64,000 nucleotides of DNA from positions 1 to 64,000 of the forward strand of contig JASHOC010000240.1 in assembly GCA_030041305.1 (NCBI GenBank). The letters are read 5' to 3'. Positions 3,487-28,669 of this stretch are shown here, one piece after another; position 1 is the stretch's first letter, and every line of letters begins with the position of its first letter. The notes under the pieces are model-generated. The model worked only from the letters and a program-made list of their open reading frames with translations, did not search any database and was not told the DNA's origin. This DNA is from Acidobacteriaceae bacterium. GTDB taxonomy: Bacteria; Acidobacteriota; Terriglobia; Terriglobales; Acidobacteriaceae. A program made the translations under genes and the position numbers.

Positions 3487-4461
3487 CTAGTTATACGCCG
3501 CGGTGGGCCACGCGGGCTCCTCGAGGAGCACCCGGATCGCTTCCTGGTAGGTCATATCGGAGGCCACCGGACGAAATTCCGTGGAAGTTTGGCTGGTGGA
3601 AAAATCCACGTTCTTGATCATCAGTATTTTTCCGGTCAGACGGAGCCGGAGGGAGGTCGATTCCCAATGGTGCCCGTCTAGATCGCCCACGTCCGCGTTT
3701 TCTTCGAGGATGCTTCCGCCGCGATATAACCTGCCCAGCACGCCCCACCCGAAATTCACGTCCGAGACAAGGTGCGCGTCGATCTTCACAATGCGCAGTT
3801 GCGCTTGATCGACCCATAACTCGCCAACCATGCCGTGGAACACCTCGCCCTCGCGGTCGGGGGGAACAAAGTTCGGATTAGGTTTGAAGCTCAGCCGGTA
3901 GCATGGGCCGTTCGGCCCTTCGACCGTTCCCTCGTTCGTGTAGAGAAACGCATCGGGCAACATGCGCACCAATTCGTCTTCGCGAGTGTCGTTCTGGCGC
4001 TCTTTCCTGTAGCGCTGCAGTTGAATTTGCGGATTCGCCAACAGATTTTTGAGCCGGGCGACTTCCGCCGCGTCCTCCGCCTCGGTTAGCGGCTTGCCTC
4101 CCTTTTCGACCAGTCGCGAAACGGCGCCCTCGCTTGTCTCGATCACGGTTTTCAAGTCGCTGCTTTTCGGGTCTTGTTCGAAAAACCGATAGCGATAAAA
4201 GCGAGGCGCGCTGCCGTGGTGCATCTCGTTCCAGGACGCGTCGCGGACAATTGTCTGAGCGTCCGGAGCAGACTCGGGAGGCGCGGCGGAGCTTGCCGGT
4301 AGGCCGACGAACGGCAACAATCCGGCCACGGTTGCAACGCAGTGGCGCGCCCACAATTTTTTAGGGAGAATCGGAGCGCGGACGCTCGGGTGACGACCGG
4401 GAACGGTGCAGTGGTCTGGTGCGCCCTTGCAGTTTTGGCCGTAATACCGCGTGACGTCCAT
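3487..4461 (-). CDS. Secreted hypothetical protein (outer-membrane-lipoprotein-sorting-like)
   Basis: 324 residues. A basic-hydrophobic segment (KKLWARHCVATVAGLLPFVG, about residues 34-53) followed by LPASSAAPPES looks like a signal peptide. The 33 residues in front of it make the annotated start doubtful, although GGAG lies just before the ATG. The mature part is alternating beta-type sequence (CYRLSFKPNPNFVPP, MVGELWVDQAQLRIVKIDAH, STSLRLRLTGKILMIKNVDF), the style of periplasmic LolA/LolB- or MucB-like lipid-binding folds. Proteins of this type are common in Acidobacteriota, but I do not recognise a defined family and assign no function. It is on the same strand as the methyltransferase, about 225 bases downstream of it, with nothing recognisable in between. 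Confidence 0.6.
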   Translation of the reverse strand: MDVTRYYGQNCKGAPDHCTVPGRHPSVRAPILPKKLWARHCVATVAGLLPFVGLPASSAAPPESAPDAQTIVRDASWNEMHHGSAPRFYRYRFFEQDPKSSDLKTVIETSEGAVSRLVEKGGKPLTEAEDAAEVARLKNLLANPQIQLQRYRKERQNDTREDELVRMLPDAFLYTNEGTVEGPNGPCYRLSFKPNPNFVPPDREGEVFHGMVGELWVDQAQLRIVKIDAHLVSDVNFGWGVLGRLYRGGSILEENADVGDLDGHHWESTSLRLRLTGKILMIKNVDFSTSQTSTEFRPVASDMTYQEAIRVLLEEPAWPTAAYN

Positions 4462-4687
4462 TTCTCCTTTTCCTAGGATGTCACATTGGACCCTTCAGCC
4501 GGAGAAACGTATTTAGGCTGCAATCGAACGCGCTTGGCGTCCGTTCGCGAAGTCCTGCCCATGCAAGCCAAAGGTTTCCGTCAACTTCGCGGACCAGGAT
4601 CGTGGATTTTCCCCAGCGCAGAGGCTCTACCGGCGCGGCAGTTGCCTTGACGTGACGCCATCGCCCGGTGCGAGAAGAATTGGCCGG

Positions 4688-5680
4688 TCAAGGCGCAGCA
4701 ATGAGACCTGTGCCCCGCCAGCTATTGCCGTTATGGCGCTCGATGGTGGCTTTCTGCACACCCGCGGTCGTAAACCAATCTACGACTTCTTCGCGGCTAT
4801 GGTAGTAAGCGGTGGGCGCCACGAGCTGGTCGAACACGTTCCAGAAATTTTCGGCAAAGGTATAACCGGAGATGGAGCAGAGATAATCCGAATAGGGCAG
4901 ATAACGCTTCAAGGCAGGCCGGGTTTTGGCGGGCGCGTAGAGCAGCTTGAGGCCGGCATAGAGAAATACTGCCGGCGGAACACAGAGGCAACGGGTGATC
5001 GACTTGGGCAGCCGCGAGGTGATGTTCTTGCGCACTGGATCGACGAAGCGCTCGATCCAGGCGTTGCCTTCCTTGCCATAGACCCAGGTGGAGATGCGGC
5101 CGCCCGGTTGCACGTGCCGGGTAATTGCAAGGAACCCTGCCTTCGGAACGGGAAGATGATGGATAACGCCGATGCTGTAAACCAGCGTAAACGGGTTGCC
5201 GAAGGGAAGCTCCAGAATGTCCGCCTGCACCACGTGCACATTGGGCAGGTCGCGGGTGTTCTTGAAGGCGGCTTCCACCGCAAAGGAAAGATCCACGCCG
5301 ACCACGGTGCGGGCGCCGAAACGCGAGGCGAGATAAATGTGGCGGCCCTTTCCGCACCCGGCGTCGAGAACCACCTGGTCCTTGAATTCGTCCGGAGTCA
5401 GGGGTGCAATCCAGGCTAGAAACTCCTTTTTGTCGGCTTCGGTAAGCTGGGAGTAATGCGTCCACTCATAGCCGAAAGCCGCCGCCGTGGCTTGCTTTTC
5501 GGCGTTGAGGCCTCCACCCACAAAACGGGGAATTCCGCGCACGACGGGAACGCGGCTGGCGCACCCATTGCACGTCAGCGCGCCTGTCATCACTTCCGCG
5601 CCCTCAACCTCCTCGCTCGCCAAGCTGAATCCATTGCGGCAGTTGGGGCAAACCAGAAGAGATACAAGAGACGTCTTCAA
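4688..5680 (-). CDS. SAM-dependent methyltransferase with N-terminal zinc-ribbon (Trm112-like)
   Basis: 330 residues. The N-terminus carries two Cys pairs (CPNCRNGF at residues 12-19 and CNGC around 38-41), a Trm112p-like zinc ribbon often fused to class I methyltransferases. Motif I of the SAM fold is VVLDAGCGKGRHIYLASRFG near residues 98-117, followed by VVGVDLS and a GxIHH-type motif (SIGVIHHLP). The start is TTG at 5680, overlapping the stop of the upstream ceramidase-like gene by four bases (TTGA), so the two are translationally coupled. The C-terminal part (RYLPYSDYLCSISGYTFAEN, then a DWF segment) resembles methyltransferases of glycan and lipid clusters. The substrate is unknown; context suggests a lipid or sugar. 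Confidence 0.8.
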   Translation of the reverse strand: MKTSLVSLLVCPNCRNGFSLASEEVEGAEVMTGALTCNGCASRVPVVRGIPRFVGGGLNAEKQATAAAFGYEWTHYSQLTEADKKEFLAWIAPLTPDEFKDQVVLDAGCGKGRHIYLASRFGARTVVGVDLSFAVEAAFKNTRDLPNVHVVQADILELPFGNPFTLVYSIGVIHHLPVPKAGFLAITRHVQPGGRISTWVYGKEGNAWIERFVDPVRKNITSRLPKSITRCLCVPPAVFLYAGLKLLYAPAKTRPALKRYLPYSDYLCSISGYTFAENFWNVFDQLVAPTAYYHSREEVVDWFTTAGVQKATIERHNGNSWRGTGLIAAP

Positions 5681-6561
5681 TCGGATCTCCGCGTGACCGC
5701 TACCTGGGTGGCGGCGCTTTTATTTGGTTGGACGAAGTATGGCGCCGGAAAGCCGACAGCTTCCTCAGACAAAACGGGATGACGGCGGCGCAACATTTCC
5801 AGGATCCAATAGCAAGCCACACCCGCGGTTACATGCTTCAGCGCATGGCCGCCCACGGTCCGGCCGAGATGCCGGTAAATAGCGAAATCGCAGCTCTCGA
5901 AAATCTTTGCCACTACGTAAAAGCCGAAAGCGATGGCTAGAAAGCCAAAGCCGGTGTAGCGGGGAGGAAACAGCCCGATCAGCAACGCCAGAACTACCGG
6001 CGAGAAGAACTGGAGAAACAAGTAGTACTTGTAGTCGCCACGGCCGGTGGCGGCCGTGACATACCAGTACATCACCGTGGCGGCGCCCAGAAGAAGCATG
6101 GGTACGATGGCGAGATACCCCGTGCGAACATTGACCCGCTCCATATAGGTTGCGACCACCAAGGCGACAAACGAACAGGTCATGGGCAACAGGTCCCAGG
6201 GAAGACGGCCGTCGGACGGCGCAACGTGATACCAGAACGAGCCCATGCCGGTGAACATGACGCCGGCGAAAAATAACAGGTACGGAATGCGCTCCCTTGG
6301 ATCGAGAAACGATGTGCGGCCGCGACGACTCGTGAGCCAGATGAGGCCCCACACGCCCACCAGAAAGAAGGGAATGTTGGAAAGGACTTCCAGGGCGTTG
6401 GGAAGTCCGAGCAGGGACCGCTGGTCGGCAAAAATGTGATAGGAAGGCCCTAACGGCAGCCGCGGCGCAAGAGTGAGAATCGTCACCGCCGCCACGCAAA
6501 CAACCGCAATGAGCGCCAGACGTATTCGGCGCGGCCAAGCGCGCGAGGGGAGGATGAACAA
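5677..6561 (-). CDS. Ceramidase-like (CREST superfamily) integral membrane protein
   Basis: About 294 residues from a TTG start at 6561 (preceded by GAAGGGA), or 300 from a GTG at 6579. The open frame extends back to 6855 but then overlaps the divergent asnB gene, so the longer start is rejected. Seven or so hydrophobic helices are visible. Two diagnostic segments of the alkaline ceramidase/PAQR (CREST) superfamily are present: GSFWYHVAPSDGRLPWDLLP (metal-binding His and Asp) and GHALKHVTAG near the C-terminus (two further His). CREST enzymes are zinc-dependent membrane amide hydrolases; bacterial members are largely uncharacterised. It is coupled to the methyltransferase that follows it and is divergent from asnB. 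Lipid-amide hydrolysis is a family-based inference. Confidence 0.75.
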   Translation of the reverse strand: MFILPSRAWPRRIRLALIAVVCVAAVTILTLAPRLPLGPSYHIFADQRSLLGLPNALEVLSNIPFFLVGVWGLIWLTSRRGRTSFLDPRERIPYLLFFAGVMFTGMGSFWYHVAPSDGRLPWDLLPMTCSFVALVVATYMERVNVRTGYLAIVPMLLLGAATVMYWYVTAATGRGDYKYYLFLQFFSPVVLALLIGLFPPRYTGFGFLAIAFGFYVVAKIFESCDFAIYRHLGRTVGGHALKHVTAGVACYWILEMLRRRHPVLSEEAVGFPAPYFVQPNKSAATQVAVTRRSD

Positions 6562-6781
6562 ATTACGCCGTCCCTTCACGAGAAGAGGCGCCCCGCGAAT
6601 GGAGCGTCCGTCTAAGTATAGAGCAACCGATGGACTGTTGGACCAATTGCGCCAGCTTTCCGCGGCCGCGATCTGTTGCGCGTGGTTGCCTTTACACTCA
6701 CAAGAGGGCCATGCTACGATCAACGAAAACGTGGCGCTCGTTTTTGGGTAAGGATCGGTTTTTTCCTCGAGGGATGAACAT

Positions 6782-8692
6782 TTGTGTGGCATAGTCGGAT
6801 TCACCGCGAAAAACTGGCGTCCCGATCCAGAGCGCATTCTTCGGGCAACCAACACGTTGCTTCATCGCGGACCCGATCAGCAGGGCGTCTACCGATCGCC
6901 AAACTGCTATCTGGGCGCGACTCGTCTCAAAATCCTTGATCTTGCCAAGGGCGATCAGCCCATTGTTTCTGAAGATCACGATGCCGTTATCATCTTCAAC
7001 GGCGAAATTTACAATCATCTCGAAATTCGCAAAACCCTTACATCTTGTGGACACCGGTTTGAAACCCACTGCGATACAGAGACTGTATTACACGCCTTTC
7101 TCGAGTGGGACACCGGCTGCTTTGAGAAATTGCGCGGGATGTTCGCCGTCGCCATCTGGACCAACTCCCGGCAGCGATTGATTCTCGCCCGCGACCGGAT
7201 CGGCATCAAGCCGCTCTACGTTGCCGAGCGGGGCGAGGACCTTTTCTTCGCCTCCGAGCTGAAGGGCATTCTGGTTCATCCTGAGATTGAGCGGCAATTG
7301 AGTCTGGAAGCACTGGATGCTTATCTGTCGGTGAATTACGTCCCCTCGCCTCGGACTATGGTCGATGGCGTGGAGAAACTGCCCCCGGGTCACTGGCTCG
7401 AATGGAGTAATGGCCGCGTCAGCAGACACTCCTATTGGCGGATACCTTCGATCGCGCCGGCGCGGATGTCCTTTGAAGATGCGCAAGCGCAGCTCGATCT
7501 GCTACTGCAGCAGTCGGTCAGCGAGCACATGATGTCCGATGTTCCCTTGGGGGTTTGGGTCAGCGGCGGCATCGACTCGACCACGATTCTGCACTATGCC
7601 GCGCACGCGTCGAGCTCAAAGCTGCGCACATTTTCGATTTCCTTTCATGGCCGCAGCTTCGACGAGTCGGACTACGTGGCCGAGGTGGTGCGGCAGTATG
7701 ACACTGACCATGAACAGTTCGATTTGAATCCCGAGCAGGACTTGGAAAGCGCGATCCGCGAGCTGGCGTATTATTCCGACGAGCCCAGCGCCGATTCCGG
7801 CGCGTTGCCGGTGTGGTATCTGTCCAAACTGTGCCGCACCGGCTGCACCGTGGCCTTCAGCGGCGAGGGGGCGGATGAAATCTTCGGCGGCTACCTCACC
7901 TATCGCGCCAACCGCATCGCGCAATGGCTGCGGCGGCTGCCCTCCGGCGTCATCCATCTTGCGCTGCGATCCCTCGACGCGTGGCCGGCTTCGAACGAGA
8001 AAATCAGCCTGGAATACAAATTGAAGCGGCTGCTGAGGGGAAGCTTACTGCCGGCGGAGCAAGCCCACATTTATTGGAATGGAAGCTTCTCAGAGGAAGA
8101 GAAGGTGCGCCTGGTGAATGCGCCGCTGCCTGGCGCTCTGCTCGATATCCTTTCCAGTTTGCGAGCCTCGGCCCCCGGAGATGGAATCGCCCCTTTTATG
8201 GAATTCGATCAACAGTATTATCTGCCTGACGACATTCTGGTGAAATCGGATCGCATGAGTATGGCCCACTCCATTGAAGTCCGGCCGCCATTTCTCGATC
8301 ATCGCATCCTGGAATTCGCCGCCGCCCTGCCTTTGGATTTCAAAATACGGGGGAGCAAGCAGAAGTATCTGCTCAAAACGCTGATGAAGCCAAGACTGCC
8401 GGCATCGATTGTGCAGCGCAAAAAGACCGGCTTTGACATCCCTTCCCATGCTTGGTTTCGCGGAGTCCTGCGCCCCCTGTGGATGGAAACGCTCGATCAA
8501 GCCGAGTCCGAATACTGTGACCTGTTCGCTTTCGACAGAATTCGCCAACTGACCCAACTGCACATGAGCCGGCGCATCAACATTGGCTACCACCTCTGGG
8601 GTCTGATGACCTTGTTCCTTTGGATGAAGCAATGGAAACTAAGCTGTGCAGCGATAGGTCAGCCCGCCGGACAGTTGTCCGCGATCGGCTGA
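6782..8692 (+). CDS. asnB: Asparagine synthetase B-type glutamine amidotransferase
   Basis: 636 residues. The start is TTG at 6782, fixed by the required N-terminal nucleophile Cys2 (MCGIVGF) and by an AGGGA site seven bases upstream. The N-terminal Ntn amidotransferase domain (LLHRGPDQQG, IFNGEIYNH, CDTETVLHAF) releases ammonia from glutamine. The C-terminal synthetase domain has the PP-loop SGGIDSTT at about residue 260 and the later SGEGADEIFGGY motif. Such proteins make asparagine or amidate carboxyl groups on sugars and lipids. Cluster-embedded copies next to glycosyltransferases are often of the second kind. Its stop overlaps the next gene start by one base (TGATG), so it is probably co-transcribed with the ArnT-like gene. 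Confidence 0.92.
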   Translation: MCGIVGFTAKNWRPDPERILRATNTLLHRGPDQQGVYRSPNCYLGATRLKILDLAKGDQPIVSEDHDAVIIFNGEIYNHLEIRKTLTSCGHRFETHCDTETVLHAFLEWDTGCFEKLRGMFAVAIWTNSRQRLILARDRIGIKPLYVAERGEDLFFASELKGILVHPEIERQLSLEALDAYLSVNYVPSPRTMVDGVEKLPPGHWLEWSNGRVSRHSYWRIPSIAPARMSFEDAQAQLDLLLQQSVSEHMMSDVPLGVWVSGGIDSTTILHYAAHASSSKLRTFSISFHGRSFDESDYVAEVVRQYDTDHEQFDLNPEQDLESAIRELAYYSDEPSADSGALPVWYLSKLCRTGCTVAFSGEGADEIFGGYLTYRANRIAQWLRRLPSGVIHLALRSLDAWPASNEKISLEYKLKRLLRGSLLPAEQAHIYWNGSFSEEEKVRLVNAPLPGALLDILSSLRASAPGDGIAPFMEFDQQYYLPDDILVKSDRMSMAHSIEVRPPFLDHRILEFAAALPLDFKIRGSKQKYLLKTLMKPRLPASIVQRKKTGFDIPSHAWFRGVLRPLWMETLDQAESEYCDLFAFDRIRQLTQLHMSRRINIGYHLWGLMTLFLWMKQWKLSCAAIGQPAGQLSAIG

Positions 8693-10479
8693 TGAGACGT
8701 AAAAACATTTTCCTCGTTATCGGACTTTTCGCTGCCACAATCTATCTGGGCTGCATTCTCTCTCCCCCGTCTCTGATGGATGACGTGGACTCCGTGCAAG
8801 CCCAGATTGCCCGCAACATGTTGAGCTCCGGCGACTGGGTGACCGCCCATCTGGATGGGGTGCCGTTTTTGGAAAAGCCCCCGCTCATCTATTGGATGGT
8901 CGCGGTGTCGTATAAAATTTTGGGGGCTCACGACTGGACGGCGCGCATTCCGGTTGCGCTTTCGGCCATCGCCCTGTGCCTCGTCACCGGAGTTTTCGGC
9001 GTCTGGGCGTTCGGAAAACGGGCCGGTCTCTATGCCGGGCTGTGCATGTCAACGTGCATCGGCCTTTTTCTATTTACGCGCATTATCCTGCCCGACGCCA
9101 CGCTCACCCTCACCATCATCCTCGCCCTATGGGCAATGTTGCGGGCGCTCGATGAGGAAGAGCCCAGGCCAGGACTATGGTTGACCGTGATGGCCGTTTG
9201 CCTGGCCGCAGGTCTGCTGCTCAAGAGCCTGATCGGAATCGTGTTTCCGATCGCCGCCGGCCTGCTTTACCTCGCCATCACCCATCAGCTCTTTTCTGCG
9301 CGCACCTGGAAGCGGCTTCATCCTTTTCGCTTCCTGCTCATTGTGCTGCTGGTCGCGGCGCCCTGGCACATTCTGGCCACTCTTCGCAACCCTCCTTATT
9401 TCAGCTTCACTTTCAAGAGCATCCCGGGCGAGTACCACGGTTTCCTGTGGTTCTTTTTCATTAACGAGCAATTGTTGCGCTTCTTAAATCTGCGTTATCC
9501 GCGCGATTACGACACCGTTCCCCGCCTTTTCTTCTGGCTCTTCAACCTCATCTGGCTTTTTCCCTGGACGGTCTATCTCCCCGCTACTTTCAAGCTTTCC
9601 TATCGCCCCGTGGACCGGGCCGGAAAAACTTGCCTGATGGCTATCTGCCTCATTGGTTTTGTAATGGTGTTCTTCACGTTTTCGACGACGCAGGAATACT
9701 ACTCCATGCCCATCTATCCGGCCCTAGCTCTCCTGATTGGTGCAGCAATAACGCAAGAAAGCAGAATCGCGCATGTTGGGACGCGGGTTTTGACGGTTGT
9801 ATGCGCCTTGGCGGCGCTCGCCGCGATCTTGATTCTGGTGGCTGTGCGCCATGTGGCCACGCCCGGGGACATTTCCAATGCACTCAGCTACAACCCCGGG
9901 GCCTACAAGCTATCGCTGGGACACATGGAGGACCTGACACTCGATTCCTTCGCCTATTTGCGCCTTCCACTTGCGCTGGCGGCAGCGGCGTTTCTAATTG
10001 GTGTTCTCGGCACGTTGCGAACGGCCCGGCGCGGCGCTTATTTTGCCATCTCCCTGATGATGGTGTTGTTCTTCCATGCCGCGAGAGTGGCGATGGTCAC
10101 TTTTGATCCATTCCTGTCATCGCATCCCCTTGTGGACGCTCTGGAACGATCACCCCGCGGCGGACTGATCATCGATTACCACTACTTTTGGTACTCATCC
10201 GTGTTCTTCTACACTGATCGTACCGGCCTCCTACTCAACGGCAGGAGGTTCGGGATGGTCTATGGATCGTACGCTCCGGGCTCCGCCGAGCCGTTCATCG
10301 ATGACGACCAGTTTCAAAAGCTTTGGGAGACACCGGAGAGGTATTATCTCTTCGCCAAGCCTTCGCAATTAGACGGCTTGGGTCATCTGGTGGGCGAAAA
10401 CCGGTTGATCACCGTGGATATGAGCGGCGGAAAGATGCTGCTAACCAATCACCCGCTCCCGGTTGCTGGCGGCACATGA
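8692..10479 (+). CDS. ArnT-like glycosyltransferase (GT-C fold, PMT_2/GT83)
   Basis: About 595 residues from ATG at 8692; the longer frame from 8620 overlaps asnB by 73 bases and is not preferred. The N-terminus has one helix and then the GT-C periplasmic loop SLMDDVDSVQAQIARNML with the conserved acidic pair, followed by the GVPFLEKPPLIYW motif typical of ArnT/dolichyl-phosphate mannosyltransferase-like enzymes. Ten or more further helices follow. Enzymes of this class move a sugar from a polyprenyl-phosphate carrier to lipid A or another periplasmic acceptor. Two ArnE/ArnF-sized EamA proteins at 13.6-14.5 kb could flip the lipid-linked donor. Sugar and acceptor are not defined by sequence. 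Confidence 0.85.
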   Translation: MRRKNIFLVIGLFAATIYLGCILSPPSLMDDVDSVQAQIARNMLSSGDWVTAHLDGVPFLEKPPLIYWMVAVSYKILGAHDWTARIPVALSAIALCLVTGVFGVWAFGKRAGLYAGLCMSTCIGLFLFTRIILPDATLTLTIILALWAMLRALDEEEPRPGLWLTVMAVCLAAGLLLKSLIGIVFPIAAGLLYLAITHQLFSARTWKRLHPFRFLLIVLLVAAPWHILATLRNPPYFSFTFKSIPGEYHGFLWFFFINEQLLRFLNLRYPRDYDTVPRLFFWLFNLIWLFPWTVYLPATFKLSYRPVDRAGKTCLMAICLIGFVMVFFTFSTTQEYYSMPIYPALALLIGAAITQESRIAHVGTRVLTVVCALAALAAILILVAVRHVATPGDISNALSYNPGAYKLSLGHMEDLTLDSFAYLRLPLALAAAAFLIGVLGTLRTARRGAYFAISLMMVLFFHAARVAMVTFDPFLSSHPLVDALERSPRGGLIIDYHYFWYSSVFFYTDRTGLLLNGRRFGMVYGSYAPGSAEPFIDDDQFQKLWETPERYYLFAKPSQLDGLGHLVGENRLITVDMSGGKMLLTNHPLPVAGGT

Positions 10480-12053
<1,574 letters not shown>

Positions 12054-12187
12054 TGTGAATGTTGGTCGCAGTTCACGCGGGTGATCGATGCTATCCGCTC
12101 CGTCTTGCGATCCCGCCCCCGTGGCCGCGGCGGCGTTGACCCGCAGGTGATTTGACCCCGCCAGCGCCTGGAGGGGATCAATGATGG

Positions 12188-13423
12188 CTACTCACCAGCC
12201 ACCGTGCTGACATCGACAGCAGAATTTGAGCCGGCTGGTTGAATGGGAACCAGATCCCCGTTTACGATGGCGTATTTGTGCCCGCGCCAGAAAATCGATT
12301 TCCGGGCAAAACTCGTCAGCCAGATAAGCGTAGCCACCGCGTCCCACATCGGAATAAGAGCCAGCTTGGCCCATACGCCGCGTTGCCGCAGGCCAACCGT
12401 GCCCACCAGCAGCGTCAGCACGCAACGAACTGCGAAATATCCACCCAGAAACAGGGCTGCCACCGCGGCCGTGGGTTCAATCGCCACCGCCGCCAGCGCC
12501 CAGGGCAGGCCCAACGTAAAGATCAGGCCGGCGTGTCCCCACGGCCTCATATGGCGCATCACCGTGATCCAGCGCAAACGCTTGGAGAACAACTCGCGGA
12601 AGGACTGGTAGTCGGGAACCGTGGAAATGGCGTACGGCAGCAGTACCACCTCGTGTCCCCGCTCCGCAATCAACCGCCCCACCCACAGGTCGTCGGCAGG
12701 CTTGTTCTCGATCGAGCCGTAACCGGAAAATTCCTCGAGACGACTCCTGGTGGTGCAGATGGTCGGGCCGAGCGTAAATTTCACGCCGTCAAGCTGCCAG
12801 GCCACCAGGATCCCAGGATAGAAGTCCGAGAGCATGCCCACGTCCTGCAGCCGTTGCACCCAACTAGTTTCCTTAATGGGCACATAGAAGCAGGTGACGG
12901 CGCCGACACCTGGGTCGGCCATCGGGGCAACAAGGCGGCGCAAGTATCCAGGTTCCACACGGACGTCGCTGTCGTTGATGACCAGGTGCTCGTAGGCGGC
13001 TTCTTTGACCAGCCGCGCCAATTTGGCGACTTTGTCGTTGGTCGCATTACGGCCCGTCCCAATCAGGATACGGATATGCGTTCCAGGGAAATCGCCCTGC
13101 AATCTCTCGAGGAGCGGTAACGCCGGGTCGCTCGAATCTCCCACGCAGAAATTAACGTCGTATTCCGGGTAATCCTGCCGGCAGAAACTCGCGAAATTCT
13201 CGTAGGCTTCCGGGTCGAGTCCCCGCACCGGTTTCAAAATACTGACCGGGGGTAGAAACTCCTTCGCTGTGGTCCTGGCGCCGAAAAAGAACCGCAAGCC
13301 GCTGAAAATCGCTATTCCATAGTAAACAAAGGGGATTGCGGCTATGGCGAGAAGCGCCGTTCGAATTGTCGAAAAAATGACCAGGGCTGCACGCACCGTT
13401 AGGGAGCCTTTCCACTGTATCAC
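12188..13423 (-). CDS. Ceramide glucosyltransferase-like GT21 family enzyme (HpnI-like)
   Basis: 411 residues from GTG at 13423; a second GTG at 13396 is also possible and would start just before the first helix. One N-terminal helix (TALLAIAAIPFVYYGIAIF) precedes a GT-A domain beginning PPVSILKPVRGLDPEAYENF. The processive-type signature D, DxD, D, (Q/R)xxRW is seen as VGDSSD, NDSDVR, ADDLWVG and KRLRW. C-terminal helices follow. This is the layout of eukaryotic ceramide glucosyltransferase and of bacterial HpnI, which moves N-acetylglucosamine to bacteriohopanetetrol. HpnI-specific companions HpnJ/HpnK are absent, so a lipid acceptor other than hopanoid is possible. It is convergent with sqdB. 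Confidence 0.82.
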   Translation of the reverse strand: MIQWKGSLTVRAALVIFSTIRTALLAIAAIPFVYYGIAIFSGLRFFFGARTTAKEFLPPVSILKPVRGLDPEAYENFASFCRQDYPEYDVNFCVGDSSDPALPLLERLQGDFPGTHIRILIGTGRNATNDKVAKLARLVKEAAYEHLVINDSDVRVEPGYLRRLVAPMADPGVGAVTCFYVPIKETSWVQRLQDVGMLSDFYPGILVAWQLDGVKFTLGPTICTTRSRLEEFSGYGSIENKPADDLWVGRLIAERGHEVVLLPYAISTVPDYQSFRELFSKRLRWITVMRHMRPWGHAGLIFTLGLPWALAAVAIEPTAAVAALFLGGYFAVRCVLTLLVGTVGLRQRGVWAKLALIPMWDAVATLIWLTSFARKSIFWRGHKYAIVNGDLVPIQPAGSNSAVDVSTVAGE

Positions 13424-13614
13424 AGCGCGACGGCAAGGGCGCCCCGAAACGCGCGAGTCCTGATCGCGATTGCCGACTGCCTCGATGCCGGAGCCGGAAT
13501 GCTCAAACCTCCTGGCCCACCACTCTGAAAAATCAGAGCTTGGCCGTCAATTGGAAGCGCCAATCCCGCCGTGGGGACCGCGTCCGGGAGCGGCTGTTTC
13601 TATACAATGAATGA

Positions 13615-14091
13615 GTGTCTAGAGTGCTGATGGACGAGGCGACGGCTCCGGAAGAAACGCTTAAGCCCCACCGGACCCTCAAACCCAAGACCTTTCTCAT
13701 GATTCTGGTAATGGTCGTTTGCGGCCCCCTCGGCAACGTGTTGCTCGGCAAGGGGATGAAGCAAGTGGGACGGGTTGGAATTTGGCCGGTTTCGCATCTG
13801 TTTTCGAGCCTGGTGTCAATTTTTGCGAATCTCTCCATTTGGATGGGGATCTCATCCCTGATCGTGTTCTTTGTCGCCTACATGCTGGTGCTCTCCTGGG
13901 CTGACTACAGCTTCGTCCAGCCCGCCTCGGCGTTGGCCTACGCTGTTGTCGCGCTCCTGAGTTTCCTCGTGCTCGGCGAACACGTCTCTCCCTTGCGCTG
14001 GGTGGGAATCGCGATCATCTGCCTGGGGGTCTTTGTCGTTAGCCACACCGCTCCACAGACCACCAACCGGGAAACGGCGGGTCGAACCTGA
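13615..14091 (+). CDS. Small EamA/DMT family transporter, subunit 1 (ArnE/ArnF-like)
   Basis: 158 residues from GTG at 13615, or 153 from the ATG at 13630. After a cytoplasmic tail of about 20 residues there are four helices: KTFLMILVMVVCGPLGNVLL, WMGISSLIVFFVAYML, FVQPASALAYAVVALLSFLV and WVGIAIICLGVFVV. The pattern GEHVSPLRWVGIAII is the EamA repeat ending. Half-size EamA proteins usually work as homo- or heterodimers; the best-known pair is ArnE/ArnF, the flippase for aminoarabinose-phosphoundecaprenol that feeds ArnT. The second half-size protein begins two bases after this stop. Confidence 0.75.
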   Translation: MSRVLMDEATAPEETLKPHRTLKPKTFLMILVMVVCGPLGNVLLGKGMKQVGRVGIWPVSHLFSSLVSIFANLSIWMGISSLIVFFVAYMLVLSWADYSFVQPASALAYAVVALLSFLVLGEHVSPLRWVGIAIICLGVFVVSHTAPQTTNRETAGRT

Positions 14092-14092
14092 C

Positions 14093-14467
14093 GTGGCGAA
14101 TTTCATTCTTTTTTCGGTAATTGTGCTGGCGGGGACAGGAGGCGAGCTTTGCGTCTCCCGCGCTATGAAGCAAGTGGGCGAGGCCACCAGCTTCCGTCCT
14201 GCCCACGTCATTCGCGTGGTGCTGCAAGCCCTCCGCCAACCGTGGATGTGGGTGGGAGTGAGTATGATGGCGCTGGCCTTTTTCGCCCTTCTCGGCGCGC
14301 TCTCCACCTTCAACGTAAGCTTTGTGGTTCCCGTCACCGCGCTGAGCTATATCGCCGGAGCGCTGGGAGGGGTAATTTTCCTGCATGAGCGCGTCAGTTT
14401 CTGGCGCTGGTTGGGTGTGCTGCTGGTGGCGATTGGGGTAACCCTGGTCATTGTGGGCAAGAGTTGA
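14093..14467 (+). CDS. Small EamA/DMT family transporter, subunit 2 (ArnE/ArnF-like)
   Basis: 124 residues from GTG at 14093, directly after the preceding TGA. The longer frame from 14033 would put 20 hydrophilic residues in front and overlap the upstream gene. Four helices: FILFSVIVLAGTGGELCV, MWVGVSMMALAFFALLGAL, FVVPVTALSYIAGALGGVIF and WLGVLLVAIGVTLVIV. Both partners share the VLxGxG/GPLGN..(S/G)(R/K)(A/G)MKQVG element in helix 1, so they arose from a common half-size ancestor. Predicted to form a heterodimeric inner-membrane flippase or exporter with its partner. The substrate is unknown; a lipid-linked sugar is the context-based guess. Confidence 0.75.
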   Translation: MANFILFSVIVLAGTGGELCVSRAMKQVGEATSFRPAHVIRVVLQALRQPWMWVGVSMMALAFFALLGALSTFNVSFVVPVTALSYIAGALGGVIFLHERVSFWRWLGVLLVAIGVTLVIVGKS

Positions 14468-14582
14468 GCCTCATGTCACAGCGCCGGATCGATTTAAGCT
14501 CGCACAAATTCATCGCTCTCGCTCTTCCCTTCCCCACCGACGCATGACGGCATCGGAGATGGCGAAAAAATCGGCGCAGAGT

Positions 14583-15935
14583 CTAAGGATTATGCAGCTC
14601 GTTCAGCCAATCCTGCATATGCCCAAGCGCGCGCAGCAGGTTCAAACGCGCCTTGGCCAGGTTCAACCCCGCCTCGAGCGCGTCCTCGTACCGCTGCCGC
14701 TCATCGATCATGGCTTGCTGCTCGGATGTTGGGCTCAACTGGGGCTGCGCGTTCGGGCTGGCGCCGGCGCCGTTACCCGACTCAAGTTGCGTTTGTACGC
14801 CTTTTAGCTGCTCGCCCGCAATTTCTTCCTTCAGCCTGGCAATTTCGGCTTGCGCATCGAGTTCGCGCAACTCTCTGGTCAACTCCACGACCTGCAAGTC
14901 ATTTTGCCGCTGCTCCTGTTCGGCCTCGATGCGGGCGCGCAGCGCATCGGCCGCCGAGGCCCGCGCCAGCGAACGGAATCCAAGGTTGAAGACAGGCAAC
15001 TGGATGGCGAAGCCGGAGCTGAGATTGTTGGCTGGCAGAAACTTCTTGTAGTACTGGTTAATGCTGTTCAGCAGCGTGGTGTTGCGGTCGTAAAGAACGC
15101 CGAAGCCGATCTGCGGCCACCATCTGCGTTCTTCGTCGCCCTTGGCCACTAGGTCTCGGGAGCGCGCCTGCATCTGGGCCGATTCTAAACCCGGCGTTGG
15201 ACGCGACGACTCATCTCCGGTGATCGCCGGGATCGCGGGAATGCTGATATGGTCGGGCGTAATCGATCCCGTCGGCATGTTCGTCATCACGGAGATCTGT
15301 TTCGAGAGCGTGGCGGCGCGCGTCTCCAGGTGTAGCCGGTTGAGCTTGAGCTGCGCGGCCGTCAATTGCGCCTGCAACAGCGAGATCAACGGATCCACAC
15401 CGGCGTCGGTCCGCTTTTGCTCGATCTCCACTAGCCGATTGGCGTCTTCTTCCTGCTGCTGTGCGGCTGTCAACTCCCGGTCTACCGTATCGAGTTCGAT
15501 GTACATCGTCGAGGCGTCCAACGCCACCTGCTCACGCGCATCCTTGAGCGAAAGCTCCGCAGCTTTGAGCCCCAGGCGCGCCGCCTGGGCTTGGCGGATC
15601 ATGGGCATGCTAAAGGCCACCGATTGTACGTTTGCGTCCCATAAGCTTGGCAATGAACCGGTAAAGCCGACTTCAGGAAAGGCCGGCAGTCCAGAACCGA
15701 AGGAAAGGGCCGGGATAAAGACGTCGTGGCTCTCCGCGAGCTGCGCAGTTGCTTTGGCCACGTCGGCCGCGGCCAACCGCACCGCGGTGCTGTTGCGCTG
15801 CGCCAACTCGACCACCGTCGTCAACGACACCTGCGCCCGCGCCTCGGCGGCTGCGGCCATCAGCACCGCGACGATTGCAAGAGCCGCCAAGCCTCTCCAC
15901 AGGCTCTTTGTCGCCGTCACGCGATGATCTCCCAT
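14583..15935 (-). CDS. TolC family outer-membrane efflux protein
   Basis: 450 residues from ATG at 15935 (TGATG overlap with the upstream stop; a TTG one codon earlier is less likely). A signal peptide (LAALAIVAVLMAAAAEARAQ) leads into LTTVVELAQRNSTAVRLAAADVAKA. Two OEP repeats with long amphipathic coiled coils follow, for example ELDTVDRELTAAQQQEEDANRLVEIEQKRTD (residues about 153-183; given here as position guidance only in part) and a second set near 330-380. TolC proteins form the trimeric outer-membrane channel of tripartite exporters. It is the last gene of a three-gene operon with an adaptor (HlyD) and a TPR protein. No inner-membrane pump gene is present, so it may serve a pump encoded elsewhere. 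Confidence 0.88.
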   Translation of the reverse strand: MGDHRVTATKSLWRGLAALAIVAVLMAAAAEARAQVSLTTVVELAQRNSTAVRLAAADVAKATAQLAESHDVFIPALSFGSGLPAFPEVGFTGSLPSLWDANVQSVAFSMPMIRQAQAARLGLKAAELSLKDAREQVALDASTMYIELDTVDRELTAAQQQEEDANRLVEIEQKRTDAGVDPLISLLQAQLTAAQLKLNRLHLETRAATLSKQISVMTNMPTGSITPDHISIPAIPAITGDESSRPTPGLESAQMQARSRDLVAKGDEERRWWPQIGFGVLYDRNTTLLNSINQYYKKFLPANNLSSGFAIQLPVFNLGFRSLARASAADALRARIEAEQEQRQNDLQVVELTRELRELDAQAEIARLKEEIAGEQLKGVQTQLESGNGAGASPNAQPQLSPTSEQQAMIDERQRYEDALEAGLNLAKARLNLLRALGHMQDWLNELHNP

Positions 15936-16927
15936 CAATGTGTGAAATTCCGCGCCGGTGCGTACTCGTGCGCCAGCTCGAATGCGATTTCTTCATCCTG
16001 TCGCGCGCCGACGTCGTCGCCAAGCGCGTGTTTGAGGTGCGCCAGACGGTGGTAGGCCACAAACGCAGGTCCTTCGTCGGTCCTGTCACTGCTGGCCAGG
16101 TAATGCTCGAGCATCTTCGCCGCCAGCGCCGGATCCCGGTCGGACTTGATCAACACGCCCGCGCCGTCGTAAAGGGCTACACCCGCGTGCGGATCGCGCG
16201 CTGCGGCAGCATTGCAGTTGTCGATGGCCCAATCCATCTCCGTCCAGCGTCGGCGCTGCTGGTAAAAACGGGCCAGCGTGGCCCACTGGCGGGAGGGGTG
16301 CGGGCTCGCCGCGACAGCTTTCTTCAGTTCCCTCTCCGCTGTGTTTGAATCGTTCCGCTCCTCGGCGATCTCCGCACGCAATTCGCTCCCCCGCGCCGGG
16401 TCAATGCGGTCCAACACCTCGGCCACGCCCTCGGCCTTGTCCAATCCGCCTCCGAGGACTGCTGGAGCGTCCACGTAGTACTCGCCCAAATCGGCAAGGG
16501 CCGGGGTGTTGCGGGGATTCAATTGCGTCGCGACCTGAAATTGTTGAAACGCCTGTTTGCCCAGTGTGTACGCGGCCATGAACGACGCCCGGCTGGCCTT
16601 CTCGCCCAGCGCCCGGCCCAGCCACATGTGATCGTCGGAATTTTCGGGATCCAGATTCACCGCTTGCTCGCAGGCGGCGACAGCCGCATTCCATTGCTCC
16701 AACCCGAAGCGCACCCGGCACTCCAAATTCTGCGCTTCGGCGTTTTCCACTCCACCTTGCGGCAGCGATGCAATCAAAGTCAGCGCCTGGTCCGCTTCGC
16801 CAGTCTGCAAAGCAGCGTTGGCTTTCTGTAGGATTCTACCCGGCTCCTGCGCACGCCCGACGCCCGCGGCGAGACCGGCAAGCAAAACGACTTGCACGGC
16901 GCAGAACCTGGCCGGCACCCCCCTCAC
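15935..16927 (-). CDS. Tetratricopeptide repeat protein, exported
   Basis: 330 residues from GTG at 16927, with a GTGA overlap onto the stop of the HlyD gene. A signal peptide (VQVVLLAGLAAGVGRAQEPG) is followed by TPR-type helices: ILQKANAALQTGEADQALTL, CRVRFGLEQWNAAVAACEQA, PENSDDHMWLGRALGEKA, and further repeats with TPALADLGEYY and SRQWATLARFYQQRRRWTE. The middle part (YVDAPAVLGGGLDKAEGVAEVL) matches a conserved line in acidobacterial TPR proteins. TPR modules mediate protein contacts in the periplasm. Its place between adaptor and channel genes, with overlaps on both sides, implies a role in assembling or gating this exporter, but no direct precedent is known to me. Confidence 0.75.
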   Translation of the reverse strand: MRGVPARFCAVQVVLLAGLAAGVGRAQEPGRILQKANAALQTGEADQALTLIASLPQGGVENAEAQNLECRVRFGLEQWNAAVAACEQAVNLDPENSDDHMWLGRALGEKASRASFMAAYTLGKQAFQQFQVATQLNPRNTPALADLGEYYVDAPAVLGGGLDKAEGVAEVLDRIDPARGSELRAEIAEERNDSNTAERELKKAVAASPHPSRQWATLARFYQQRRRWTEMDWAIDNCNAAAARDPHAGVALYDGAGVLIKSDRDPALAAKMLEHYLASSDRTDEGPAFVAYHRLAHLKHALGDDVGARQDEEIAFELAHEYAPARNFTH

Positions 16928-18162
16928 TGCTCTACCCTGATGGGTACGCCCTGCAGCAAGGGCTGCCCATTTTCTGTTCCCGTAGCCACCAAATCTCCCT
17001 GTTTTAGCCCGGAAAGGATCGGCACTTGGGTCAAAGTGGGAGTGCCGATGGTCACTGGAGTCCGCTTCAATTCTCCGTTCACAACTTGATACACGTAATA
17101 CTGTCCATTCTCCGAATACAAGGCCGCGCGAGGGCAGCTCAAGGCGTTCGGTTGACTGGAGACCGTTACCTGGACGGTGACATTGGTGTCCGGCAACAGG
17201 CCCGCGTCCGATTCGTCAATCGCCACCAGCACCTCGCCTACTCGGCGCGTTCCGTATGTGATCACCGTAACCGGAACACGCACGATATGACCATTCCACA
17301 CACGGCCCGGCTTGGCGTCCCAGCGGATAAGAATCTTCTGTCCGACGGCGAGCTGACCGATTTCCGGTTCGTCGAAGTAGGCCCGCACCCGCTCGTGCTT
17401 GAGATCCGCCATTTCCAGGATCAGCTTGCCTTGTTGTTCGAACTCCGAGGGCGCGGCATCCATGCTGTAGACGGTTCCGTCAATGGGCGCGTAGATCTTC
17501 GTTTGCGCTTCCACCTGCTGGGCCGCTGTTAACGCGGCTTGTGCGTCAGCCAGCGCCGCCCGCGCCCGCGCAACTTCATCCGGCGAATAGCGGCTCTGCG
17601 CGCTTTGCTCGGAGGCGCTCAAGCTTGCCTCGGCCACCTGCAGGCGCTGGCGCGCCGCCGCCACCTCGCCCGGCGAAGCCGCGCCCGTGGCGGCCAGTTT
17701 GGTAAGCGCATCCAAGTCCTGCTTTGCCTGGTTCAGCGCCAGCCGGTCCTGCGCCACCTCCGCAGCCGCAGCCTGCCGCTGCTCCAGGGTGCCGTTATGT
17801 GTGATCGCCTCCAGCGCCGCTTGCGCCGATTTCACGCCGCTCTCCGCGCTGGCTACCTGCGCCCGCGCATCCACGTCGTTCAGCACGATGAGCAGCTTGC
17901 CGGCAGAAACCCGATCGCCGGGTTGCACGTACACCACCTGCACAGTGGTCGAAATCGGGCTGTAAAACGGGTAAGGCCGCACCGGCTCCACGAGCCCGTT
18001 GGTGCTGACCGTGTTCACGATCACCTCGTGCCGGATTTCCGCCGCGCGCACCATCAGCCGTTGGCGAAACAAGGATCGCGCCGTGAAAAATACAACAAGG
18101 ACCATCACCACCACGGCCAGCCATAGCCAACCCCGGTGCAATTGCCTTCTTTCGTGAGCCAT
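16924..18162 (-). CDS. HlyD/RND-type periplasmic adaptor subunit
   Basis: 412 residues. An N-terminal membrane anchor (LWLAVVVMVLVVFFTARSLF) is followed by a barrel-sandwich half-motif (VQVVYVQPGDRVSAGKLLIV), a long alpha-helical hairpin (residues about 100-215, rich in AQ/AEV repeats), the second lipoyl half (TKIYAPIDGTVYSMD) and a beta-barrel domain ending PILSGLKQGDLVATG. Membrane-fusion proteins of this kind bridge an inner-membrane ABC, RND or MFS pump and TolC. It is the first gene of the operon; the gap to divergent queF (about 130 bases) should hold both promoters. The pump is missing here. Confidence 0.87.
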   Translation of the reverse strand: MAHERRQLHRGWLWLAVVVMVLVVFFTARSLFRQRLMVRAAEIRHEVIVNTVSTNGLVEPVRPYPFYSPISTTVQVVYVQPGDRVSAGKLLIVLNDVDARAQVASAESGVKSAQAALEAITHNGTLEQRQAAAAEVAQDRLALNQAKQDLDALTKLAATGAASPGEVAAARQRLQVAEASLSASEQSAQSRYSPDEVARARAALADAQAALTAAQQVEAQTKIYAPIDGTVYSMDAAPSEFEQQGKLILEMADLKHERVRAYFDEPEIGQLAVGQKILIRWDAKPGRVWNGHIVRVPVTVITYGTRRVGEVLVAIDESDAGLLPDTNVTVQVTVSSQPNALSCPRAALYSENGQYYVYQVVNGELKRTPVTIGTPTLTQVPILSGLKQGDLVATGTENGQPLLQGVPIRVEQ

Positions 18163-25900: not shown

Positions 25901-27025
25901 TTATACGCGCCGCACGGTTTTATGCATGGGCACCACCTGCACCGTCACGTCCCGCACTTCCGACAGAAACCGGTTCAGCACCGAGCCGCGCAACAGAATG
26001 TCCCAGCGCGAGCGCGCCGACTGCCCAAAAACCACATGAGAGATGTTCTCCTGCTGAGCAAAGCGGATCAGCGCATCGGAGACGTTGCGGTCAGTGAGCT
26101 CCACCACCTGCGCGCCCAGATCGCGCGCCATGCGTTTGTACTCCTCCAGGCGGTGGAAAGCCTCCGGATCGCCGTGGCCTTTGTCGTCCGGGCGGCTGAC
26201 GTAGACGGCGTACCAGTTGGTGGCCAGCCGGCCGGCGATGCGCGCGCCCACCCGCAGCAGCCGCTCCGTACCCGGCCGTGTGCTCAGGCAGACCATGACT
26301 TTTTCCGGCATGGGCGCCTGTTCCAGACCCTGGATGCGCCGGTATTCGGCGGCGCGACTGCCTACCTGCTCTGCTGTGGTGCGCAGGGCCAGCTCGCGCA
26401 ACATATTGAGATTGCCTTTACGAAAAAAATTGGCCAGGGACTGCTCGACTTTTTCGGGAGCGTAGATTTTTCCCTGGCGCAGGCGCGTGCGCAGCTCGTC
26501 CACGGTGATGTCCACGTTCACCACCTCGTCGGCGCGCTTCAAAAAGCTGTCGGGAACGGTTTCGCGGATGGTGGTGTTTGCCGAGCGGCTGACCGCGTCA
26601 TTCAAGGTTTCCAGGTGCTGAATATTCACCGCCGTCAACACGTTGATGCCGGCGTCCAGCAGCTCCAGCACGTCCTCATACCGCTTGCGGTTCTTGCTTC
26701 CCGGCACGTTGGTGTGCGCCAGCTCGTCCACCACCACCGTGTTGGGATGGCGAGCAAGGATCGCATCCACGTCCATCTCTTTCAGATTGACGTTCTTATA
26801 CGGGATTTCTTTAAGAGGAATGATCTCCAGGTCGCGAATCTGGTTTGCCGTTTCCTTGCGCCCGTGGGGTTCCACCAGCCCGATGACCAAGTCGACACCC
26901 TGCTGAGACCGCATCAGGTTGGCGTCATTCAGCATAGTGTAGGTCTTGCCTACGCCGGGGGCCGCGCCAATATAGATGCGTAATTTGGCTGGTTCCTGTT
27001 TCTTTTCGAGGACGATTTCGGGCAT
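25901..27025 (-). CDS. KdpD N-terminal-like protein: KdpD domain plus universal stress domain
   Basis: 374 residues. The first 210 are the KdpD sensor domain (PF02702-like) with Walker A GAAPGVGKTYTML at residues 20-32, the Walker B-like VVDELAHTNVPGSKN, and the usual DILRHPNTVV-type stretch. The remainder (from VMVCLSTRPGTERLLRVGAR) is a universal stress protein fold ending SHVVFGQSARSRWDILLRGS. Full KdpD proteins go on to four helices and a kinase; here those parts are in the separate gene just upstream, three bases away. No kdpFABC or kdpE is in the window. It probably works with that kinase-like protein to sense K+ or stress and bind ATP or cyclic-di-AMP, by analogy only. Confidence 0.85.
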   Translation of the reverse strand: MPEIVLEKKQEPAKLRIYIGAAPGVGKTYTMLNDANLMRSQQGVDLVIGLVEPHGRKETANQIRDLEIIPLKEIPYKNVNLKEMDVDAILARHPNTVVVDELAHTNVPGSKNRKRYEDVLELLDAGINVLTAVNIQHLETLNDAVSRSANTTIRETVPDSFLKRADEVVNVDITVDELRTRLRQGKIYAPEKVEQSLANFFRKGNLNMLRELALRTTAEQVGSRAAEYRRIQGLEQAPMPEKVMVCLSTRPGTERLLRVGARIAGRLATNWYAVYVSRPDDKGHGDPEAFHRLEEYKRMARDLGAQVVELTDRNVSDALIRFAQQENISHVVFGQSARSRWDILLRGSVLNRFLSEVRDVTVQVVPMHKTVRRV

Positions 27026-27028
27026 CGT

Positions 27029-28435: not shown

Positions 28436-28669
28436 CGGCCGGTCTCCAAATCCCCGCGGAAATGATTCTTCATTCTCGATTCTCCCGGAAACGCCCATCC
28501 CATGCAAAATGCAGCTTGCGGCTCTAACCGGCGCGTCCGTCGATTGCGCACCCGAGAATCGAGCAAGAAGAGCGGCGTCCACGCATTCAATTGACCATAT
28601 TGGCATCCCTCCAGCCACGAGCACCAGGTTACGCATAACGCGCTACCGGATACAGGCGCAAAGCTGCGC

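Follow-up and report, generated by a model that had tools for sequence, protein, structure and literature searches.

A recurrent acidobacterial gene set points to a probable Arn-like, SqdX-independent route to a sulfoquinovose-bearing envelope glycolipid

In enterobacteria, the Arn pathway (ArnA-ArnF and ArnT) places 4-amino-arabinose onto lipid A through a nucleotide-sugar short-chain dehydrogenase/reductase (SDR), a membrane glycosyltransferase (GT), a paired half-size flippase of the EamA/SMR type and a GT-C glycosyltransferase of the ArnT family. Two other described systems bear on the present subject, namely the synthesis of the ordinary sulfolipid, sulfoquinovosyldiacylglycerol (SQDG), by SqdB/SQD1 and SqdX/SQD2, and the HpnI step of bacteriohopanetetrol cyclitol ether synthesis. 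Here we analyze a stretch of 64,000 nucleotides from an Acidobacteriaceae bacterium (contig JASHOC010000240.1; hereafter the window), which is contig C358 of a 6.4 Mb genome and in which six genes at 6782-14467 encode an AsnB-family amidotransferase, an ArnT-like GT, a homologue of the UDP-sulfoquinovose synthase SqdB, a GT of family GT21 and two half-size EamA proteins (EamA1 and EamA2). Based on conservation, linkage and co-occurrence, we propose, with a probability of roughly 0.6, that these genes form an Arn-like, SqdX-independent pathway to a sulfoquinovose-bearing envelope glycolipid. The kind of system is already known (Arn-like lipid glycosylation plus SqdB) and the combination appears to be new; in the open-licence PMC literature we found no paper describing such a sulfoquinovose pathway, and a search for sqdB with arnT gave none.

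The cluster resembles the Arn pathway in the homology found for ArnT and, weakly, for ArnE, and differs from it in having SqdB for ArnA/ArnB, GT21 for ArnC and an additional AsnB. Pfam and NCBIfam scans detected no ArnA, ArnB or ArnD among the ten proteins encoded at 3487-15938. The sugars would also differ in charge, as that of the cluster would carry a negative sulfonate and that of Arn carries a positive amine. With SQDG synthesis the cluster shares the first enzyme, a predicted UDP-sulfoquinovose synthase, but its partners are GT21, the EamA pair and AsnB-ArnT, and a search of the window's genome that scored 11 of 19 candidate places revealed no close SqdX. HpnI is, like the cluster GT, a member of GT21; however, the cluster protein scores 286.7 bits on the HpnI model TIGR03472, under its cut-off of 310, and is encoded beside SqdB rather than beside HpnK/HpnJ.

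The neighborhoods of SqdB were surveyed in loci from named genomes, taken as the best 80 of 585 matches, and in further stretches taken around cluster genes (loci or stretches are numbered L and genomes G, G000 being the window's genome). Sixty distinct loci, the window included and several close relatives among them, encode an SqdB at least 70% identical to that of the window; left out of this count were seven duplicates, six distant SqdB loci and eight loci of an SqdX type, seven with an SqdX-like GT beside SqdB and one (L211) that only groups with them in the SqdB tree. Genes in relatives were called with a crude in-house open reading frame (ORF) picker, and partners were counted from 50% identity for AsnB, ArnT and GT21, 45% for EamA, 40% for a methyltransferase and a CREST hydrolase encoded upstream, and 30% for MacB. 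At least one of AsnB, ArnT, GT21, EamA1 and EamA2 lies within about 10 kb of SqdB in 52 of the 60 loci (ArnT in 42, GT21 in 37, AsnB in 36, EamA1 in 31 and EamA2 in 30); AsnB, ArnT and GT21 are found together near SqdB in 23 loci and all six genes in 16. Many contigs end nearby, and among loci of at least 12 kb a core partner is near SqdB in 36 of 41. Core partners were near SqdB in none of 29 cyanobacterial loci and in none of the eight set-apart acidobacterial SqdX-type loci, one of which has MacB. The original prediction, made from the sequence of the window, had proposed such a survey, and the recurrence of GT21, ArnT-like and paired EamA genes near acidobacterial SqdB was indeed observed, rather than their dispersal to unrelated places in relatives. 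Gene order and strand differ between loci, which favors selection on the gene set over a frozen neighborhood.

The named records with SqdB loci are labelled Acidobacteriaceae, Bryobacterales, Acidoferrales, Sulfotelmatobacter, gp2, other Acidobacteria and one Betaproteobacteria. The last (CAJCHZ010000075.1, L188) carries the same cluster, with an SqdB that closely resembles the one in the acidobacterial L185, and is probably misbinned or mislabelled. Among the best 80 matches, the closest named relative at the SqdB locus is an Acidobacteriaceae metagenome-assembled genome (L149), with an SqdB identity of 95%. The conserved set is thus seen in Acidobacteriota and in one contig labelled otherwise, with the CREST hydrolase removed and the methyltransferase optional.

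Genome-wide co-occurrence was assessed in 150 genomes of the same family using SqdB, ArnT, GT21 and EamA1 as queries. Orthologue cut-offs were set after seeing the gaps in scores, which separate at least 561 from at most 452 bits for SqdB, 418 from 310 for GT21, 662 from 388 for the best ArnT match per genome and 132 from 95 for EamA1; presence of SqdB was counted from 60% identity. By these rules, SqdB is found in 24 genomes, GT21 in 20, EamA1 in 18 and ArnT in 40. All 18 EamA1 genomes carry SqdB (2.9 expected), as do 19 of the 20 GT21 genomes (3.2 expected), with a Fisher p of about 2e-18 for each overlap, kinship being ignored. The sole GT21 genome lacking SqdB (G071) is 84% complete and its GT21 match is cut short. 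GT21 is found in 17/18 EamA1 genomes, window-type ArnT in 16/18 EamA1 and 19/20 GT21 genomes, and SqdB in 19 of the 40 ArnT genomes (6.4 expected). Co-occurrence extends to genomes in which the genes are unlinked, for example, EamA pairs in L268-L270 and GT21 on other contigs in G045, G115, G139 and G111; L131 and L268-L270 hold parts of the set far from SqdB in the same genomes. In the window's genus (g1, five genomes), the window's genome has all four tested genes and the other four have none; in g43 all four are present in one of two genomes, and like contrasts are seen in g33 and g61. Within the set, AsnB-ArnT is a separable core, and SqdB, GT21 and EamA behave as a cassette.

The SqdB of the window is a full-length homologue of Arabidopsis SQD1 (599 bits, residues 2-385 of 411). 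Thr144, Tyr181 and Lys185, which had been pointed out in the original prediction and which we take to be catalytic, are each retained in 97% or more of the 68 sequences aligned, the window included, and long invariant stretches are retained in the same alignment. Among the best 80 of the 585 matches, identity to cyanobacterial SqdB reaches 72%, and the loci from outside Acidobacteriota are cyanobacterial, bar the contig labelled Betaproteobacteria. On the NCBIfam model NF041015 the protein scores 485.6 bits, under the curated cut-off of 575; the same holds for two SqdB proteins of cyanobacteria (479.6 and 485.9 bits), and this cut-off is therefore not diagnostic. The sequence strongly suggests that the protein converts UDP-glucose and a sulfite donor to UDP-sulfoquinovose. 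A second SqdB-like gene, 49% identical to that of the window, is present in the window's genome (G000:C71:27228-28379, L045) on a contig that also holds several sugar-epimerase-family genes, and copies of similar distance (47-52%) are seen in G115, G139, G084 and G069.

The AsnB protein scores 474 bits on asn_synth_AEB (cut-off 267), its nearest solved chains are a hydroxyamidotransferase (PDB identifier 7ylz) and AsnB (1ct9), and it has a Cys directly after the start, presumably the usual nucleophile. The ArnT-like protein matches the structure of ArnT (5ezm) with an E-value of 1.4e-23 over residues 52-403 and keeps the EKPP motif; since its score of 83.6 bits on NF009784 is far from the curated ArnT equivalog cut-off of 567, we refer to it as ArnT-like and not as ArnT. 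The two genes had been described as overlapping by one base, which is correct if translation starts at the in-frame ATG at 8692; a start at ATG 8632 gives an overlap of 61 bases and TTG 8620, which opens the longest ORF, one of 73. Among 54 loci in which both genes are present, they are on the same strand in 53 and within -100 to 150 bp of each other in 52, the spacing being taken at match edges. In an ArnT tree from a quick search, two groups are separated with an SH-aLRT of 81; 42 of the 46 rows of the larger group come from loci or genomes with SqdB, and 44 of the 46 are supported at 98. Among 23 ArnT loci whose genomes lack SqdB, not one has window-type EamA or GT21. In one such locus (L137), genes for an HpnK-like deacetylase and an ArnC-like GT instead occupy the place downstream of ArnT, and a more distantly related GT21 is close by.

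Known acceptors of GT21 enzymes are ceramide and bacteriohopanetetrol. The cluster GT21 keeps the motifs D151xD153, D244D245 and R282xR284W285, and three of its relatives also remain under the TIGR03472 cut-off, with 290.5-296.3 bits. Its predicted model (pLDDT 82, from an alignment of 13 of 19 rows first chosen) has a membrane GT-A fold, with PcManGT as the best structural match (VIA Z 23.4 over 310 residues, rmsd 4.1). We considered GT21 as a plain replacement for ArnC, as hinted by L057, where an ArnC-like gene is beside ArnT and GT21 is not nearby; this was dropped because the genome of L057 has GT21 on another contig (G115:C94) and L180 and L181 hold both. A radical SAM/SPASM gene adjoins window-type GT21 in L129 (10092-11129), L130 (9021-10118) and L132 (from 315), and in L129 and L130 it lies between GT21 and ArnT, where the window has SqdB.

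EamA2 directly follows EamA1, in order, in all 31 loci holding both, and in the window its alternative start is located just after the EamA1 stop at 14091. The predicted model of EamA1, built from 18 sequences, is helical (pLDDT 71), with EmrE/Gdx as the top PDB folds at weak E-values (0.06 or worse). EamA2, whose alignment retains 15 of 18 rows and has 37 invariant columns, is the only one of the two that matches the ArnE model, with 22.5 bits against a cut-off of 92. The pair is probably an ArnE/ArnF-like heterodimer. A divergent half-size EamA gene lies directly beside SqdB in L161, L163, L165, L177 and L195, two such genes being present in L165 and L177, and these loci are labelled Acidobacteriaceae or Bryobacterales; hence the tie between SqdB and EamA seems to be the strongest within the set. 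Two EamA pairs per SqdB locus, 41-46% and 52-63% identical to the window pair, are seen in L185 and L188.

In the pathway that we propose, SqdB would use UDP-glucose and a sulfite donor to form UDP-sulfoquinovose, GT21 would act at the cytoplasmic face and attach the sulfoquinovose to a lipid of the membrane, and the EamA1/EamA2 pair, judging from its family and co-occurrence, would flip the resulting lipid. The ArnT-like enzyme, made together with AsnB, would then act at the periplasmic face to finish the molecule, the flipped sulfoquinovose lipid most likely serving as its donor or acceptor. AsnB might amidate a carboxyl group of that molecule, which is the weakest step. The genome of the window encodes HpnH (538 bits; hopanoid) and LpxC (316 bits; lipid A), and both hopanoid and lipid A are possible there for the envelope glycolipid.

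Several observations weigh against this proposal. The cluster genes are split over both strands, and eight of the 60 SqdB loci lack any core partner in the vicinity; counting the set-apart L182 and L189, whose SqdB is 75-77% identical and is accompanied by an SqdX-like GT instead, the recurrence becomes 52/62. Among the 24 SqdB genomes, GT21 is missing in five (G006, G033, G058, G108 and G134), EamA1 in six (G006, G033, G045, G108, G113 and G134) and ArnT in five (G006, G033, G058, G133 and G134); G006 and G134 have SqdB alone. AsnB-ArnT pairs also exist in genomes without SqdB; amidation of the sulfosugar itself is therefore not implied. The smaller group of the ArnT tree comprises 21 rows, 19 of them from SqdB-free genomes, and, by the criterion applied, only six positions, including Q284 versus H and S203 versus G, separate the two groups, none of them within residues 43-159, the region of the EKPP motif; therefore, the sugar of the ArnT-like enzyme may be one other than sulfoquinovose. 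The cluster GT21 resembles ceramide glucosyltransferase in sequence (26qs/26qf, E 7e-25), and the fold of its model is nearer to an archaeal mannosyltransferase and polymer synthases than to ArnC, 26qf not being among the structural matches listed; it may thus make no polyprenyl-phosphate donor. An ArnC-like polyprenyl-phosphate GT is found in 137 of the 150 genomes and together with GT21 in L180 and L181, and weaker SqdX-like matches (49-58%) are present in three genomes with window-type SqdB (G072, G097 and G111). Two candidate discriminators were considered: the six ArnT positions, which track the tree group rather than SqdB (L137 has the plus state at six of six and L145 at five of six, both without SqdB), and the co-occurrence of ArnC-like genes, which is too widespread to discriminate.

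Two modules may instead share one address, a reading that we regard as a possible though not the favored one. SqdB, GT21 and EamA would then make and flip a sulfoquinovosyl lipid built on a hopanoid, a sphingoid or another alcohol, and AsnB-ArnT would decorate lipid A, or that same lipid, with a different, amidated sugar that an ArnC-like polyprenyl-phosphate GT would provide. The occurrence of AsnB-ArnT pairs without SqdB, the nearly universal ArnC-like genes, which adjoin ArnT in L137, L057, L180, L181 and L231, the lipid nature of the known acceptors of GT21 enzymes, among which the cluster GT is placed by homology, and the hopanoid and lipid A genes of the window's genome are all in its favor. 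Yet window-type ArnT is present in most EamA1 and GT21 genomes, and a single group of the tree takes in most of the ArnT rows associated with SqdB. It is extremely improbable that the genes are chance neighbors on both strands; the CREST and methyltransferase genes and the gene at 3487-4461 do behave so or nearly so, but for the six core genes the recurrence in 52/60 loci and the genome-wide co-occurrence contradict it.

The remaining alternatives concern the fate or the identity of the nucleotide sugar. Its use for ordinary SQDG as in cyanobacteria, with unrelated neighbors, is suggested by the closeness of the window SqdB to cyanobacterial SqdB, and by the SqdX-like GT adjoining both the other acidobacterial SqdB type and the two SqdB proteins of 75-77%; a GT4 of another sequence could still act. 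We consider it very unlikely that the cluster makes ordinary sulfolipid, because the window's genome showed no close SqdX, the scoring of 11 of its 19 candidate places having turned up nothing that matched the acidobacterial SqdX-like GT at E<=1e-90; moreover, SqdX-like GTs of at least 67% identity are confined to genomes with the other SqdB type (5/150), and the conserved partners of window-type SqdB are other than SqdX. Transfer of the sulfoquinovose to an exopolysaccharide or O-antigen, with the cluster GTs acting in that assembly, would fit the second SqdB-like gene among the sugar-epimerase-family genes of contig C71 and similar distant copies near GT4-like genes in L043 and L044. Here, however, the C71 copy is a separate paralogue and the 20 window proteins scanned gave no match to families of the Wzx/Wzy type or of initiating sugar-phosphate transferases, which leaves this use of the sugar unlikely. 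Lastly, the shortfall on NF041015 might mean that the SqdB homologue makes a different nucleotide sugar, sulfonated or not; since cyanobacterial SqdB proteins fall short too, the SQD1 match is full-length, and the catalytic residues and long invariant stretches are kept, this is quite unlikely.

A classical SQDG locus is nevertheless probable in a minority of acidobacteria. In the tree, the second SqdB type of acidobacteria clusters with that of cyanobacteria, and it adjoins an SqdX-like GT4; SqdB is beside such a GT4 in L039, L040, L041, L066, L068, L182 and L189, and six of these seven loci also have a radical SAM protein. In addition to the five genomes with SqdX-like GTs of at least 67%, five further genomes have the weaker matches. 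Four of the five SqdX genomes also carry window-type GT21 and EamA1, as would be the case if a single source of UDP-sulfoquinovose supplied two lipids.

Acidobacteria also harbor a widespread paralogue cluster, MacB-MacB-GT21a-(UXS-like SDR)-GT21b-ArnT, and ArnT-family and GT21-family matches are present in 141 and 145 of the 150 genomes, respectively. Paralogue ArnT and GT21 adjoin in L048, L059, L133-L136, L247 and, in the window's genome, L264. Like the window cluster, the paralogue cluster combines the ArnT family with GT21, together with an SDR in L048, L133 and L134; unlike in the window, the SDR is UXS/ArnA-like, or none was matched (L135 and L136), no AsnB or EamA pair was matched in the stretches examined, and the genes are only about 30-48% identical to those of the window. 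In the window's genome, this paralogue set is split over contigs C123 (L264) and C127 (L263), and the GT21a of L048 passes the HpnI cut-off (384 versus 310). The comparison suggests a machine with a changeable sugar, of which SqdB, GT21 and EamA would be the sulfoquinovose version. The Arn analogy would need undecaprenyl phosphate as the acceptor of the GT. A sulfonated counterpart of Arn would have GT21 make polyprenyl-phosphate-sulfoquinovose or a sulfoquinovose lipid, the EamA pair flip it, and the ArnT-like enzyme with its amidotransferase load either lipid A or a hopanoid, so that the outer membrane would gain a strongly acidic lipid; the UXS-GT21-ArnT paralogue cluster would then be the same machine with another sugar, in a sugar-swappable pathway of the phylum. 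We offer this extended version tentatively and consider it somewhat unlikely.

Sulfoquinovose forms a major pool of organic sulfur, and, to our knowledge, its makers and forms outside photosynthetic organisms are poorly mapped. A conserved sulfoquinovose locus that works without SqdX, in bacteria abundant in soil and peat, would suggest a new class of sulfonated envelope lipid as well as a new source of soil sulfoquinovose. Soil lipids include SQDG, which the relevant passages of PMC9969633 do not tie to acidobacteria. The cluster may further provide a role for some members of the acidobacterial GT21/HpnI family, given that SD1 and SD3 acidobacteria are described in PMC5462960 as having hpnI and hpnJ without hpnK.

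All eight genes named in the original prediction were recovered where it had placed them and were assigned by Pfam and NCBIfam profile scans (Table 1), and the joint locus drawn there holds for SqdB, GT21, the EamA pair, AsnB and ArnT, which recur and co-occur, but not for the CREST gene, which is at chance level, or for the methyltransferase, which is at best optional.

Table 1. Genes of the cluster and its upstream neighbors, in window coordinates
Feature	Position	Strand	Assignment and remarks
Methyltransferase, Trm112-like N-terminus	4688-5680	-	Pfam/NCBIfam; optional neighbor, outside the core
CREST/ceramidase-like membrane hydrolase	5677-6855	-	Pfam Ceramidase 29.9 bits; judged outside the system
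AsnB-family glutamine amidotransferase	6782-8692	+	GATase_7 and Asn_synthase; first gene of the AsnB-ArnT core
ArnT-like GT-C membrane glycosyltransferase (PMT_2)	8620-10479	+	5ezm match; start may be ATG 8632 or 8692
SqdB, UDP-sulfoquinovose synthase homologue, SDR	10818-12053	+	SQD1 match 599 bits
GT21 membrane glycosyltransferase (ceramide glucosyltransferase/HpnI-like)	12188-13423	-	Glyco_transf_21 112 bits
EamA1, half-size SMR/ArnE-like membrane protein	13615-14091	+	EamA 35.7 bits
EamA2, second half-size EamA	14033-14467	+	EamA 31.2 bits; start may be GTG 14093

The CREST gene is near SqdB in two of the 60 loci (the window and L150), and 3 of the 16 CREST genomes among the 150 carry SqdB against 2.6 expected (p 0.72); as this overlap is at chance level, we exclude CREST from the system. 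Its Ceramidase match is just under the Pfam cut-off of 32.5, and a sequence search of the PDB gave no match at E<=1. The frame is probably over-long, as the alignments of the 15 relatives listed begin no earlier than residue 101-132. For the methyltransferase, proximity to SqdB is seen in only 6/60 loci, the window included, which does not support a place in the core, and it lies beside AsnB-ArnT in 2 of the 23 loci from SqdB-free genomes (L137, 41%; L148, 61%); it may therefore be an optional extra.

MacB-like permeases occur in 13/60 SqdB loci and in 7/23 ArnT loci of SqdB-free genomes, and adjoin the EamA pair in several relatives; no MacB match was found in window positions 1-24000. Beside the EamA pair, the window has TolC-like, tetratricopeptide repeat (TPR) and HlyD/RND-adaptor genes at 14583-18162. 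The TPR protein is encoded at 15935-16927 and recurs near EamA in L061, L062 and L190 (36-40%). Further along, at 25901-28636, one gene joins a KdpD sensor domain to a universal stress protein domain with no kinase part, and adjoins a separate HAMP/PAS/histidine kinase gene.

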